Positions 36,792 to 54,101 of a DNA stretch of 64,000 nucleotides are shown piece by piece. The translations under genes and the position numbers were made by a program. Location: positions 62,001 to 126,000 of the forward strand of contig CACEFF010000001.1 in NCBI GenBank assembly GCA_902558815.1. The letters run 5' to 3'. The first letter of the stretch is position 1. Each line of letters begins with the position of its first letter. This DNA is from an uncultured Pelagibacteraceae bacterium (GTDB lineage: Bacteria > Pseudomonadota > Alphaproteobacteria > Pelagibacterales > Pelagibacteraceae). Below the pieces are notes generated by a model. The model was given only the letters and a program-made list of their open reading frames with translations, did no database searches and was not told where the DNA came from.

Positions 36792-36819
36792 CTTGAAATA
36801 GTAGGCTCAATCTCTATAT
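36792..36819 (+). promoter_or_regulatory. RpoH (sigma-32)-type promoter for groESL
   Basis: The sequence has CTTGAAA at 36792-36798 and CTATAT at 36814-36819, i.e. CTTG-N18-CTATAT. The alphaproteobacterial RpoH consensus is roughly CTTG-N17/18-CCATAT, so this matches at nine of ten fixed positions. It lies 27 bases before the groES ATG. I see no CIRCE repeat (TTAGCACTC-N9-GAGTGCTAA) in the 123-base gap, so HrcA control is not indicated. Confidence 0.65.
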
Positions 36820-37146: not shown

Positions 37147-38820
<1,674 letters not shown>

Positions 38821-50000: not shown

Positions 50001-50963
50001 ATGAAAATTTTAGTGATTCAAAATAGAATGGGAATTGGGGATACTGTAATTTTTCTACCCTATATTAAGGCTTTATCTAAAAAATTTAATTCACCTATAA
50101 GTTTACTTGTTAAAGAGAGCTCAAAAGCTAATCAATTTTTATACCAAACTAATTATATTGATGAAATTCTACTTTTACAGAGGGACAAAAAAACGAATAA
50201 TAGACATGCTGGTTTTTTTGGAAGCTTAAATTTAATTACAGATATTAAAAAACATAAGTTTGATAAAATAATAATTTTCAATTCTTCTTTTAGATTTTTT
50301 TTGATTGCAAAATTTTCTAACATCCCAGAAATATATCAATATCCATTATTTCAAAAAAATCAGCAACATATTATTGATACCCCCAGAAAATTTATGAAAG
50401 ATGAATTTAACTTAGATGTCAATGAAGACCCAGAGATTCAAATTGATCATGAATTAATTTCCCAATCATCAACAAAATTTCAAATAAATAAAAATGAATT
50501 AAATATTCTTTTAGGAATAGGAGGATCAGGGCCTACAAAAAGAATTCCAGCAAAAACGTTTATTAGTGTAATTAAAACGATGTCAGAAAAGAAGAAATGT
50601 AAATTTTTTCTAGCTACTGGTGATGATAATGATGAACAACTTATATTGGATGAAATACTAAAATCAAAATTTAAAGATCTTTGTATACCTCTAGATAATC
50701 TTTCGATTAAAGAAACTTTGCCAATAATTAAAAATTGTAATTTATCTATTTGTAATGACTCTAGTTTTAGTCACCTTTCTGCTGCCTTAGGTATAAAAAC
50801 AATAACTCTAATGGCAGACACTCCTTTGATTTATGGAAATTATAGCTCAATTATGTTCCCGATAATTCCTGAAGGAGAAAAAACAGTCACTCATAATACA
50901 TTAGGAAAAGAAAAAATTAGTTCTGAAAAAATATTAAATGAGATTTTTAAGATATTAGATTAG
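50001..50963 (+). CDS. Glycosyltransferase family 9 (heptosyltransferase-like)
   Basis: This is a GT-B glycosyltransferase of 320 residues, likely for LPS core sugars. The N-terminal MKILVIQNRMGIGDTVIFLP is the usual GT9 start. The donor site is visible as LLGIGGSGPTKRIPAKTF (about residues 171-188) and LSICNDSSFSHLSAALGIKTI (about 251-271, in part), with S-x-x-S-H as in heptosyltransferases. It stands apart from the lipid A cluster. Its stop (TTAG) overlaps the convergent J-domain gene. Confidence 0.85.
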   Translation: MKILVIQNRMGIGDTVIFLPYIKALSKKFNSPISLLVKESSKANQFLYQTNYIDEILLLQRDKKTNNRHAGFFGSLNLITDIKKHKFDKIIIFNSSFRFFLIAKFSNIPEIYQYPLFQKNQQHIIDTPRKFMKDEFNLDVNEDPEIQIDHELISQSSTKFQINKNELNILLGIGGSGPTKRIPAKTFISVIKTMSEKKKCKFFLATGDDNDEQLILDEILKSKFKDLCIPLDNLSIKETLPIIKNCNLSICNDSSFSHLSAALGIKTITLMADTPLIYGNYSSIMFPIIPEGEKTVTHNTLGKEKISSEKILNEIFKILD

Positions 50964-51463
50964 GAGATATCCTTTAAAACGATATCCTTAGCTTCATTAA
51001 CAATAGATGATAAACGGGATGTTTCTGGAGAAACATCAGGATGAATTTTTTTTTGAATTTTAACGTAAGCCTTATTTACTTCGGCTTTAGTGATTTTTTT
51101 ATTGATGTCTAGGTTCAAAATTTTATATGCTTCAGTAACAGATATTGATGACTGATTGTTTAAATTAGATTGATTAAAAGAAAATCTTCCTGATCTCCTT
51201 AAAGTTTGAATTAATCTAAAAAGAGATATTAATTGAATAATAGACAGACCCTTCAATTTTAATAATGCAAGACTTGCGAGTGTAAGAGGTAAGGTTAATA
51301 AAAATCTTCCCCCAATAGCAAATAGAATTGCCATTAAGAGCAATCCTATGATAAGTAAAATTCTTAAGCCTTTTGATATCTTTTTTGATGAAATATTGCT
51401 GATTATTTTTAAAAGAAAATAAAAAATAGTCAATATAACTACTGTATAAATTATTATATTCAT
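50960..51463 (-). CDS. Membrane-anchored J-domain protein
   Basis: This is a 167-residue DnaJ-type co-chaperone. The N-terminal part has one helix (about residues 2-20) and a second hydrophobic hairpin (about 32-75), and the C-terminal 60 residues are a J-domain: TEAYKILNLDINKKITKAEV, then YVKIQKKIHPDVS with the HPD needed to stimulate DnaK. The domain ends at the protein end, as in Tim14/Pam18-type proteins. It is divergent from oligopeptidase B, 16 bases away. Confidence 0.85.
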   Translation of the reverse strand: MNIIIYTVVILTIFYFLLKIISNISSKKISKGLRILLIIGLLLMAILFAIGGRFLLTLPLTLASLALLKLKGLSIIQLISLFRLIQTLRRSGRFSFNQSNLNNQSSISVTEAYKILNLDINKKITKAEVNKAYVKIQKKIHPDVSPETSRLSSIVNEAKDIVLKDIS

Positions 51464-51479: not shown

Positions 51480-53555
51480 ATGAAATTACCACAACTACGA
51501 AAAAAACTAGAACTAAAATCTTGTCACAATACAACTTGGGAAGACAATTATAGCTGGATACACCAAAATAATATTTTGGAAGTTTTAAAAGATAAGAAAA
51601 AACTAAATCCTGAGGTAGAAAGCTATCTTAATCAAGAAAATGAATATACTGAACATCACTTAAAAGATACCAAAATAATCCAAAAAAAATTATTTGATGA
51701 GATAAAAGGTAGAATAAAGTTAGATGATGAATCTCTGCCCTATAGAGATCATTCTTATGATTACTGGACTAAAACGACTGCTGAAGGAAATTATTCTATC
51801 AAGCTTAGAAAAAAAATTGGTTCACAAAATACTGAGGAAATATGGAATGGAGACAAAGAGAAAGAAAATCTCAAAACAGACTATTTTGGTGTTGGAGATT
51901 TGGAGATAAGTAACAATGATAAATATCTTGGTTACTCTTTAGATATAAAGGGTTCAGAATATTACACAATTTATATAAGAGATATAAAAACTAACAAAAT
52001 TATCTCAAAAGAAATTTCGGAAACATCTGGGGGAATAACATTTAGTTTAGATGATAGATATATTTTTTATTCGAAACTTGATCAAAATCACAGGGCTAGA
52101 AAAATATATAGACATAAAATTGGAAATTTCGATAAGGAAGATGAATTAATCTTCGAGGAAAAAAGTGATGCTTTTACAGTTAGTATTGGGATAAGTTCGG
52201 ATGAAAAGTATTATTTCATAAATACTTCAGATCACAATACCTCTGAACAATATTATTTCAATTCAAATGAGGAAAGGCCATTACCTAAATTAATAATTAA
52301 AAGAGAAAGAGGTGTTTTGTATTCTATAAATTCATGGGATAAGAAATTTTATAATCACACAAATAAAAATGCTGAAGATTTTAAAATTGATGTCTGTAAT
52401 AATTTAGATCATCAAGAATGGAAAGCTTTCATACCAGCTAAGAACGAAACATTAATAGGTGGACTAACGTTCCTTAATGATTGGATTATTCGAAGTGAAA
52501 CATCAGATGCATTAGAAAAATTATTTGTTAAAAATATTAATACAAACATAGAGGAAGAATTAATTTTTTCTGATGAATCAGTTTATGTTCCTGGAGTATC
52601 ATTAACTCAAAAAGATAGAAATACTGATAAAATCTATTTGGGATATTCATCACCAAAAACACCATCCAGAGTTTATAAATATAATTTGTCAAATAAATCG
52701 AAAGAGCTTGTTAAAGAGCAAGAAATTCCATCTGGTCATAATAAAGGTGATTATATTGTAGAGAGAATTGAATTTAAATCTCATGATGGAAGGCTTGTAC
52801 CTTTAACGATTACCAGACACAAAAAAACTAAAATTGATGGTTCTGCAAATTTATTATTATATGGATATGGATCTTACGGAAATTCAATGTCTCCAAGTTT
52901 TTCATCTACACGATTAAGCTTAATTGACAGAGATATTATATGGGCGACAGCACATATTAGAGGTGGCATGGAAAAAGGTATGAAGTGGTGGAAGGAAGGG
53001 AAGTTGACCAACAAAAAAAATACATTTGAAGATTATATTTATGCAGCAAAATATCTTATAGAGAAAAATTATACTTCAAAAGGAAAAATAATTGGAATGG
53101 GTGGTTCAGCTGGAGGATTATTAATGGGAGCTGTAGTAAATAAATCTCCTGAATTATTTTTAGGAATTATTATGGCTGTACCTTTTGTAGATTCATTAAC
53201 AACAAATCTAGACCATTCTTTACCTTTAACAGTTGGAGAATTTGATGAATTTGGAAATGCAAAAGATAATAAAGATCACTTTGATTACATATTTTCATAT
53301 GCTCCGTACAACAATATTAAAAAAATGGATTATCCACATATGTTAATTACAACAAGTCTAAGTGATAATAGGGTATTATTTGATGAGCCCACTAAATTTA
53401 CTGCAAAACTTAGAGATTATAAAACTGATAATAATTTACTATTACTAAAAACTGAAATGAATGCTGGTCATGGCGGCAAATCTGGAAGGGATGGAGCTAT
53501 AGAGGAAATTGCTCTTGATTATGCTTTTGCGTTAAAAATTTCAAAAAAAATTTAA
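51480..53555 (+). CDS. ptrB: Oligopeptidase B (S9A prolyl oligopeptidase family)
   Basis: This serine peptidase cuts peptides after Arg or Lys. It has 691 residues: an N-terminal seven-bladed propeller and a C-terminal hydrolase domain. The catalytic Ser is in IGMGGSAGGLLMGAV (about residue 542), the Asp in TTSLSDNRVLFDEP and the His in MNAGHGGKSGRDG. AHIRGGMEKGMKWWKEGK is the family segment before the nucleophile. The hsp20 promoter follows immediately. Confidence 0.95.
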   Translation: MKLPQLRKKLELKSCHNTTWEDNYSWIHQNNILEVLKDKKKLNPEVESYLNQENEYTEHHLKDTKIIQKKLFDEIKGRIKLDDESLPYRDHSYDYWTKTTAEGNYSIKLRKKIGSQNTEEIWNGDKEKENLKTDYFGVGDLEISNNDKYLGYSLDIKGSEYYTIYIRDIKTNKIISKEISETSGGITFSLDDRYIFYSKLDQNHRARKIYRHKIGNFDKEDELIFEEKSDAFTVSIGISSDEKYYFINTSDHNTSEQYYFNSNEERPLPKLIIKRERGVLYSINSWDKKFYNHTNKNAEDFKIDVCNNLDHQEWKAFIPAKNETLIGGLTFLNDWIIRSETSDALEKLFVKNINTNIEEELIFSDESVYVPGVSLTQKDRNTDKIYLGYSSPKTPSRVYKYNLSNKSKELVKEQEIPSGHNKGDYIVERIEFKSHDGRLVPLTITRHKKTKIDGSANLLLYGYGSYGNSMSPSFSSTRLSLIDRDIIWATAHIRGGMEKGMKWWKEGKLTNKKNTFEDYIYAAKYLIEKNYTSKGKIIGMGGSAGGLLMGAVVNKSPELFLGIIMAVPFVDSLTTNLDHSLPLTVGEFDEFGNAKDNKDHFDYIFSYAPYNNIKKMDYPHMLITTSLSDNRVLFDEPTKFTAKLRDYKTDNNLLLLKTEMNAGHGGKSGRDGAIEEIALDYAFALKISKKI

Positions 53556-53563
53556 TTCTTCAT

Positions 53564-53590
53564 CTTGAAAAATAATAATTAATTCTTAAA
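53564..53590 (+). promoter_or_regulatory. Possible RpoH-type promoter of hsp20
   Basis: CTTGAAA at 53564-53570 is identical to the groESL -35 box in this window. The -10 region at the expected distance (CTTAAA, 53585-53590, 17 bases after CTTG) is a poor match to CCATAT. The position, 64 bases before the hsp20 ATG, would leave a leader of about 55-60 bases. I trust the -35 box more than the -10 box. Confidence 0.45.
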
Positions 53591-53597
53591 TAAGACA

Positions 53598-53650
53598 TTG
53601 CAAGTCGCCTAATGGGGCTTGCAAAAATAAACTTGCTTAAAAAAGGAGGA
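53598..53650 (+). promoter_or_regulatory. ROSE-like RNA thermometer in the hsp20 leader
   Basis: Two hairpins precede the ATG. The first pairs TTGCAAG (53598-53604) with CTTGCAA (53618-53624) and continues with two more pairs. The second pairs CTTGCTT (53632-53638) with the Shine-Dalgarno region AAGGAG (53643-53648): C-G, U-A, U-G, bulged G, C-G, U-A, U-A around a 4-base AAAA loop. The U-U/C-G-C-U against AGGA pairing with a bulged G is the defining core of ROSE elements, known from small heat-shock genes of alpha- and gammaproteobacteria. The fold was done by hand. Confidence 0.6.
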
Positions 53651-53654
53651 TATT

Positions 53655-54101
53655 ATGACAAGTAAGGATCTATCTATATTTAACTCACTAAGACCATTTT
53701 CAATTGGATTTGACGATATGTTTGACCAGTTTGAAAATATGTTAGGCAACGGTTCTCTGACTATGCAGTCAAATTACCCGCCTTATAACATCAGGAAAAC
53801 TGGAAGGGACAATTATGCAATAGAAGTTGCTTTAGCTGGTTTTAATAAAAATGATGTTGAAGTTGAGTTTGAAGATAATTTATTAACTGTTAGAACTAAA
53901 CAGGTTAATAATTCTGAGAATAAAAATGTTGAAGGAGAAATAATCCATAAAGGTATTTCTCAAAGACAATTTGCAAGATCATTTACTATTGCAGACGATG
54001 TAAAAGTAAATGGTGCAGAACTTAAAGATGGTCTTTTAACAATTTCTTGTGAAAGAATTGTCCCTGAACACAAAAAGAAAAAGCTTATTCTTATTAAATA
54101 A
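53655..54101 (+). CDS. Small heat-shock protein, Hsp20/IbpA family
   Basis: This ATP-independent holdase prevents aggregation. It has 148 residues: an N-terminal arm with RPFSIGFDDMFDQFENML (about residues 13-30), the alpha-crystallin domain from YPPYNIRKTGRDNYAIEVAL (about 43-62) to ADDVKVNGAELKDGLLTISC, and a short tail with the motif IVPEHKKKKL. The Shine-Dalgarno aggagg (53644-53649) is strong but appears to be paired in the leader. It is convergent with the lipoprotein gene. Confidence 0.95.
   Translation: MTSKDLSIFNSLRPFSIGFDDMFDQFENMLGNGSLTMQSNYPPYNIRKTGRDNYAIEVALAGFNKNDVEVEFEDNLLTVRTKQVNNSENKNVEGEIIHKGISQRQFARSFTIADDVKVNGAELKDGLLTISCERIVPEHKKKKLILIK

Follow-up and report, generated by a model that had tools for sequence, protein, structure and literature searches.

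Bacteria of the SAR11 group are among the most abundant bacteria and have few regulators, and the single hsp20 gene that we found in a Pelagibacteraceae genome raises the question of whether the short leader of its mRNA senses temperature directly. The window analysed here, a stretch of 64,000 nucleotides whose numbering is used throughout, comes from a genome of 1.1 Mb in 25 contigs (about 88% complete), and no HSP20-domain gene other than that at 53655-54101 was found in it. Judged from its sequence, the 57-nt leader of SAR11 hsp20 is probably a short two-hairpin RNA thermometer of the ROSE type. The following features bear on this reading:

53564-53570, + strand: -35-like RpoH box CTTGAAA, identified by sequence
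53585-53591, + strand: -10-like box CTTAAAT, identified by sequence, 15 nt after CTTGAA
53598-53624, + strand: hairpin I, with a bulged G at 53607, a CGCC:GGGG core and the loop UAAU, from folding and compensatory changes
53632-53638, + strand: anti-Shine-Dalgarno (anti-SD) strand CUUGCUU, containing the UYGCU motif, with a bulged G at 53635
53643-53649, + strand: Shine-Dalgarno (SD) sequence AAGGAGG, of which AAGGAG (53643-53648) is paired
53632-53648, + strand: hairpin II, the putative temperature-sensing hairpin, with six pairs, one bulged G and the loop AAAA (53639-53642)
53655-54101, + strand: hsp20, an IbpA-type small heat shock protein of 148 aa
53660-53666, + strand: AAGUAAG in codons 2-4, complementary to the anti-SD strand over seven pairs, one of them G.U

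The Hsp20 protein matches PF00011 at 60.5 bits against a cut-off of 20.8 (Pfam), its gene begins with an ATG at 53655, and because the upstream gene ends at 53555 the hsp20 leader is intergenic. CTTGAA is present upstream of hsp20 in 168 of 194 distinct Pelagibacteraceae regions, as compared to 246 of 9700 shuffles; both promoter boxes, allowing a loose -10-like pattern, occur in 154 regions, with the 15-nt spacing in 152 of these 154. From this promoter to the core of hairpin I the distance is most often 13-14 nt, and the genome carries an rpoH gene (361 bits, above its cut-off). The first-pass annotation had described the CTTGAAA box as identical to that of groESL, and the heptamer is indeed found both at 53564 and at 36792, the latter upstream of an ORF at about 36846, taken for groES by eye, and of groEL, which has its signature motifs at 37408 and 38377. 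We infer from the sequence that hsp20 transcription starts at about 53598, near the foot of hairpin I; with a start at the hairpin, the very short leader of about 55-60 bases that had been claimed measures 57 nt (53598-53654). The gene two places upstream of hsp20, on the - strand, encodes a protein whose C-terminal part matches a DnaJ domain (50960-51463; 28.9 bits against a cut-off of 27.8).

Direct reading places both hairpins and the SD pairing exactly, to the base, where they had first been annotated. Hairpin I has the strands UUGCAAGUC-G-CC-UAAU-GG-GGCUUGCAA, the G at 53607 being bulged, and the segment 53590-53670 folds at -19.2, whereas its shuffles average -10.7 (z -3.7) and 0 of 200 reach the native value. 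The proposed pairing of CUUGCUU with the SD needs one correction: it is in the minimum free energy (MFE) structure of the leader alone, whereas in the MFE structure of the 81-nt fragment CUUGCUU pairs with AAGUAAG in codons 2-4. Adding 30 or 60 nt of coding sequence to the leader leaves the SD hairpin in the MFE structure at temperatures up to 37 °C; with 30 nt at 42 °C it is absent.

ROSE-like elements are characterized, in three papers (PMC11182007, PMC3669281, PMC10474464), by U(U/C)GCU paired with the SD, a bulged G, two to four hairpins and a small heat-shock gene, within a 5' UTR of 60 to more than 100 nt. The SAR11 leader precedes a small heat-shock gene, has U(U/C)GCU imperfectly paired with the SD around a bulged G, and contains two hairpins in about 57 nt, a length that depends on the putative start site. 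The ROSE reading put forward at the outset agrees with the architecture and core motif of the leader as well as with its gene context, its conservation and its promoter. A fourU thermometer was considered and rejected: there is no run of four U opposite the SD, where the anti-SD strand is CUUGCUU.

When a 401-base stretch was compared with 4227 Rfam families, the best match was ROSE_3 (RF02523; 29.5 bits, E 2.8e-4), which spans both hairpins and the start codon, with the bulged G of hairpin I aligned; of the other four matches listed for the same 401 bases, one was to a small Cajal body RNA (E 0.03) and three were on the opposite strand (E 2.3-9.3). Genome-wide, the hsp20 leader ranks first for ROSE_3 (E 1.8e-4), with one other match (E 0.66). 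The search with ROSE covariance models that had been suggested as a check therefore returned ROSE_3 as the sole good match, and because its 29.5 bits are below the gathering cut-off of 43 the leader is not filed as an Rfam ROSE_3 member; at gathering cut-offs no Rfam family matched anywhere in the window, and ROSE (RF00435) and ROSE_2 (RF01832) did not match the leader up to E 10. As a positive control, E. coli ibpA was recovered by ROSE_2 at 100.4 bits. The consensus structures of both ROSE_3 and ROSE_2 have an unpaired G in the hairpin preceding the SD hairpin. Of 20 other family leaders, only 3 have a ROSE_3 match at E 1 or better, and in a class-wide search, run with stricter filters that lose the window's own match too, 8 of 289 genomes had a match at E 0.01, 4 of these 8 being upstream of hsp20 by coordinates. 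Around hsp20 in other Alphaproteobacteria, 18 stretches yielded one ROSE_3 match at E ≤0.1 (L306, 39.1 bits) even though most of these leaders show UYGCU, so Rfam is narrow here.

We found hsp20 in 136 of 197 family genomes, many of them incomplete, and in 70 of the 77 good ones. Overlapping sets provided 207 leaders, 192 of them distinct, from which 130 non-redundant 70-nt segments were obtained. The SD-anchored UYGCU:AGGA core is present in 163 of 165 distinct Pelagibacteraceae leaders, as compared to 341 of 20600 mononucleotide shuffles (1.7%), and the two leaders that miss it (L241 and L276) have UGGA instead of AGGA. Left out of the 165 were L075 and L267, in which the leader is cut by a contig end, together with L268 and L269; counting the latter two as misses gives 163 of 167. 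L268, on a bacterial contig of the family, has a viral-type CUGUCU strand and a mis-set start codon, and may stem from a phage or from contamination. L269 belongs to a divergent second hsp20 copy in genome G042, and by eye no UYGCU element is seen in its leader.

A covariance model built from SAR11 alone (R1) has one match in the window's genome, at E 4e-21, the window sequence being part of the model's training set. At E ≤1.3e-13 it matches in 28 of 37 family genomes, the following gene having been read in a minority, and a match in G253 (E 2.9e-7) adjoins hsp20. Sister-family matches with E values around 0.01 (G252, G237, G231) and one in G241 (E 4.9e-4) are, by coordinates, not beside hsp20 and were taken as chance. 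UYGCU leaders precede hsp20 in all 8 sister-family sequences read and in several other Alphaproteobacteria too. The sister-family leaders (L290-L297) have UCGCUUAAGGAGG, and because their UYGCU strand and SD almost touch, the pairing there must differ. Short hairpins are common and the Rfam score is below its cut-off, so one could suppose that an AT-rich leader resembles ROSE by chance; the core frequency of 163/165 against 1.7% in shuffles, the compensatory changes described below and the single genome match at E 4e-21 all speak against this, and chance resemblance, to which we assign practically no weight, is refuted by conservation.

A lack of compensatory changes in related leaders would have counted against the first-pass annotation. 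In the 130 sequences, changes on both sides are found at 8 of the 9 pairs of hairpin I, in which 97.5% of cells are paired, so that this objection falls for hairpin I; hairpin II varies too little for covariation to be informative. The whole structure has 109 doubly changed cells against 24.6 in shuffles, a count that 0 of 500 shuffles reached, the shuffles keeping no control for kinship; slid controls had 5 to 49. Doubly changed pairs number 9 over the whole structure, which 10 of 500 shuffles reached. RNAalifold found hairpin I unaided and alone, and did not predict helix II. Because the SD is fixed, helix II is almost without covariation: it hardly varies apart from U.G, U-A and C-G exchanges, and its one doubly changed cell is at a pair that is often broken. 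Some counts for helix II are lowered by the MAFFT alignment, in which the SD is shifted by at least one column in some rows. On this alignment evidence, helix II is supported by invariance rather than by covariation. Just outside it, C is opposite G in 64 of 64 leaders, A is opposite U in 14, and G-U and U-A occur once each, while A lies unpaired opposite G or A in 85; the C-G pairing is a weak sign in favor of helix II. In the distant phage S-TIM5, by eye, the SD is AAGGUGG and the opposite strand CCACGCUU, a change from U-A to A-U around the bulged G.

The first-pass annotation had also called for folding at several temperatures, an SD that experiment shows to be open at low temperature counting against it. 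Folded up to the AUG, all 129 non-redundant leaders have a mostly paired SD at 15 °C, and the median SD-unpaired value rises from 0.20 at 5 °C to 0.28 at 42 °C. With 30 nt of coding sequence added, the median rises from 0.29 to 0.49 over the same range, the SD is mostly paired at 15 °C in only 97 of 129, and from 15 to 42 °C 69 of 129 open by more than 0.1 and 8 of 129 fall. With coding sequence at 5 °C, the anti-SD:SD pair has a median probability of 0.33 in the 105 leaders of the MTSKD group and 0.17 in the 24 others, and two leaders of a deep clade (L244 and L245) are predicted to be open at all temperatures. The folding model thus supports masking of the SD by the leader.

One could alternatively envision a static leader that covers the ribosome-binding site or protects the mRNA, tuning level or stability without sensing temperature. 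The small opening that the nearest-neighbor model predicts over the range from 5 to 42 °C would fit such a leader, as would the position of hairpin I at the 5' end, where it could shield the mRNA. However, for E. coli ibpA, a characterized thermometer according to PMC3669281, the same model raises the SD-unpaired value only from 0.00 at 5 °C to 0.03 at 42 °C; because a known thermometer fails to melt in it, the model cannot decide thermosensing. The imperfect UYGCU pairing and its bulge have moreover been kept where selection could have perfected the pairing, and we regard a static leader as improbable. A temperature-sensing function is likely for the leader from its sequence, and we infer that the SD hairpin would melt on warming and that translation would be controlled by temperature.

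The alternative partner of the anti-SD strand lies in codons 2-4. Among 111 near-invariant codons (residue kept in at least 97% of 100 distinct hsp20 genes), only the 3 codons ACA AGU AAG show no synonymous change, in genes that use AGU for 6.4% of Ser and AAG for 20% of Lys; all 177 MTSKD entries, from five genera and including duplicates, have ACA AGU AAG. The anti-SD:coding duplex is predicted at -7.3 kcal/mol for the native codons and -1.6 after synonymous recoding, and it reached p<0.05 in 43 of 43 tested sequences (every third of the MTSKD group). The absence of synonymous change, taken with this duplex excess, argues for selection at the RNA level on codons 2-4 in the main SAR11 clade, a conclusion that the gene comparisons support well. 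At the same threshold the duplex was found in 1 of 24 hosts with other N-termini, 2 of 28 viral contigs and 0 of 19 phage records, and these counts rule out coding-region pairing as a general ROSE feature.

One could thus suppose, tentatively and with more doubt than conviction, that the main-clade leader is bistable, its anti-SD strand pairing either with the SD (off) or with AAGUAAG of codons 2-4 (on), and that warming shifts it to the latter, freeing the SD and sharpening the response. Besides the frozen codons and the 43 of 43 duplexes in the MTSKD clade, the predicted pairing with the coding region climbs from a median of 0.00 at 5 °C to 0.16 at 42 °C, and at 42 °C the SD is predicted to be more open with native than with recoded codons (0.437 vs. 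0.296). However, the pairing is absent as a general part of the element, it dominates at all temperatures in some modeled leaders (L006), and another constraint on start-proximal codons is possible, the AAGUAAG stretch being itself SD-like. In a variant of this scheme, the coding pairing could be a second closed state with the start region in a loop.

The core of hairpin I is of the same bulged-G kind as the SD hairpin: YGC[CU]:[AG]GG occurs in 158 of 166 distinct leaders, most frequently as CGCC:GGGG among distinct family leaders, and in eight leaders hairpin I carries the ROSE core itself, UGCU or CGCU opposite AGGA or AGGG. This core may be a duplicated or a protein-bound motif. According to PMC10474464, Arg93 is required for the binding of E. 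coli IbpA to its own 5' UTR, and the residue is noted there as common to the IbpAs of alpha- and gamma-proteobacteria. By analogy, the SAR11 leader could be mainly a binding site for Hsp20 itself, which would repress its own synthesis until drawn off by aggregates, with temperature acting indirectly. By eye, SAR11 Hsp20 and 10 of 11 aligned phage Hsp20s have Arg at the position equivalent to Arg93, and the bulged-G core kept in hairpin I goes beyond what plain pairing would need; nevertheless, phage S-TIM5 keeps the Arg and has a leader that fails the strict ROSE pattern, and self-binding is compatible with a thermometer rather than exclusive of it. We consider it unlikely as the main role of the leader.

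Among studied systems, the closest relative of the SAR11 leader is the short ROSE-like element of Pseudomonas ibpA, a demonstrated thermometer of 61-62 nt with two hairpins (PMC3669281). Both have a stable hairpin I and a hairpin II that sets U(U/C)GCU against the SD, and both sit in a leader of about 60 nt between a sigma-32 promoter and a small-heat-shock gene; unlike the Pseudomonas element, the SAR11 leader has AT-rich stems and, in the main clade, codons 2-4 that match the anti-SD strand. Hairpin I of SAR11 has a bulged-G YGCC:GGR core. With Rfam ROSE_3 the SAR11 leader shares both hairpins and the bulged G of hairpin I, but its loops are shorter and its stems AT-rich. E. coli ibpA (ROSE_2) likewise opposes UYGCU, there UCGCU, to AGGA in its last hairpin and has an unpaired G in the hairpin before, but the element is part of a longer leader and is richer in G+C. 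The SAR11 hsp20 leader would be a variant within the already known ROSE-type thermometers.

Small heat-shock genes are also carried by marine phages. Relatives of hsp20 were found in 66 IMG/VR stretches and in 507-508 phage records (the second figure from a viral query), the latter mostly of Synechococcus and Prochlorococcus phages, with 6 Pelagibacter and 4 Methylophilales phage records. We read the leaders of 22 of these 507-508 records, two of which belong to single-cell marine viruses and 20 to named phages. Two-hairpin ROSE-type leaders are seen on marine phage hsp20 genes both in IMG/VR (L114-L164) and in the records (L318-L339), and in many cyanophages hairpin I has a UUCG loop.

The SAR11 model R1 was given 73 of 88 viral loci, the other 15, near-identical or truncated, having been left out by eye. 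It matched 69 of the 73 at E ≤0.1, 62 of these at E ≤0.003, with a best viral E of 2.5e-15 (1.9e-10 for Melnitz-2, 8e-9 for Syn19); at E 0.1 no match was found in L167, S-H38, S-TIM5 and Pseudomonas phage 30-2. The match is at the start of hsp20 in 68 of the 73 loci, including cyanophages, pelagiphages and methylotroph phages, and 67 of the 69 matches end within 8 nt of the ATG of the hsp20 frame (annotated or nearest in-frame), the outliers being L322, in which the match ends 10 nt inside the gene, and L166, in which it lies elsewhere. The strict SD-anchored core is present in 19 of 21 distinct phage-record leaders (2.1% in shuffles) and in 28 of 42 distinct IMG/VR leaders (1.2% in shuffles), the viral set excluding the truncated L165, L178 and L179. 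Among the 14 IMG/VR leaders without this core, a variant CUGUCU strand accounts for 12, and a start codon mis-set by the script for the other two (L167 and L169); SD hairpins with CUGUCU for CUUGCU occur in L148, L151, L154, L159, L160, L168, L170-L177 and L268. In an Rfam search of 20 sources, 19 of them phage loci, two phage leaders scored E <1, those of Melnitz-2 and S-SKS1, both as sub-threshold ROSE_3.

A search of IMG/VR for a UUCG-loop hairpin I followed by CUCGCU and AGGAG found at least 120 stretches. In 66 of the 80 that were examined, the ORF that follows is similar to hsp20 by BLAST; by eye, hsp20 also follows in four more, L388 and three that break off after 10-23 residues. In eight of the 80 (L359, L360, L379, L392, L405, L406, L411, L414), an ORF of 69-76 aa comes first and an hsp20-like ORF, by eye, follows it, on which ground we rejected for these 8 loci the idea of a viral leader on unrelated genes; two of the 69-76 aa ORFs were scanned and had no Pfam match above cut-off and no PHROG match. 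L354, also among the 80, has no start codon and looks like a chance occurrence in coding sequence. At L353:99-190, another of the 80, the UUCG-type leader pattern precedes a rubredoxin-like ORF of 48 aa, not hsp20. The alignment of 34 of 64 phage leaders being poor in hairpin I, pairs were counted directly in the 83 distinct UUCG hairpins (without L354): sequence varies freely at the three pairs below the first, which are paired in 83, 82 and 82, as compared to 41-48 in shuffles, 0 of 2000 of which reach the observed value at each pair.

The CUUGAA RpoH box is present in 14 of 63 IMG/VR leaders and 0 of 22 record leaders. The sequence UAUAAAUA, which we take to be the T4 late-promoter consensus, occurs in 41 of 63 and 5 of 22, respectively, as raw counts in AT-rich leaders. 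A possible synthesis, about which we are more doubtful than confident, is that one module of a bulged-G hairpin I and a ROSE SD hairpin is common to SAR11 and marine T4-like phages, the phage copies mostly lacking the RpoH box, that the phage would thereby tie its chaperone output to how warm the infected cell is or to its state of aggregation, and that codons 2-4 of the main clade would make the thermometer bistable. Phage-carried thermometers are known from lambda cIII (cited in PMC11182007) and from the fourU element of SP-beta blyA (PMC10586365); both concern other genes and other motifs rather than ROSE on hsp20.

The initial remark of being aware of no ROSE element in this lineage agrees with the open-access literature: among the papers listed, we found none whose title or abstract opening reports a ROSE-type hsp20 leader in SAR11 or in phages. 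A term search of a 2009 survey of P. ubique RNAs found no thermometers, heat shock, hsp or ibpA, and 'rose' solely as part of an author's name; term searches of two papers on cyanophage Hsp20 (PMC3827213, PMC5028025) found none of the words 'UTR', 'untranslated' or 'thermometer'. New beyond the first-pass annotation are the viral hsp20 copies of the leader and the frozen codons 2-4 as a possible competitor for the anti-SD strand.

Under the thermometer reading, the RpoH promoter would start the hsp20 mRNA close to the foot of hairpin I, and heat would raise the amount of this mRNA. Hairpin I, which is stable, would probably nucleate or protect the fold, and in hairpin II the U(U/C)GCU strand would hold the SD through weak pairs around the bulged G. 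Ribosome binding would then be poor at normal sea temperature and better once warming loosens hairpin II, with competition by codons 2-4 and feedback through binding of Hsp20 to the leader as possible refinements.

If this reading is true, the frozen codons 2-4 would offer a clean mutational test of coding sequence as part of a thermometer, and ROSE-type leaders on cyanophage and pelagiphage hsp20 would mean that host-style temperature control travels with the chaperone gene. For SAR11 itself, an RNA thermometer on its single hsp20 would directly link sea temperature to the stress response.
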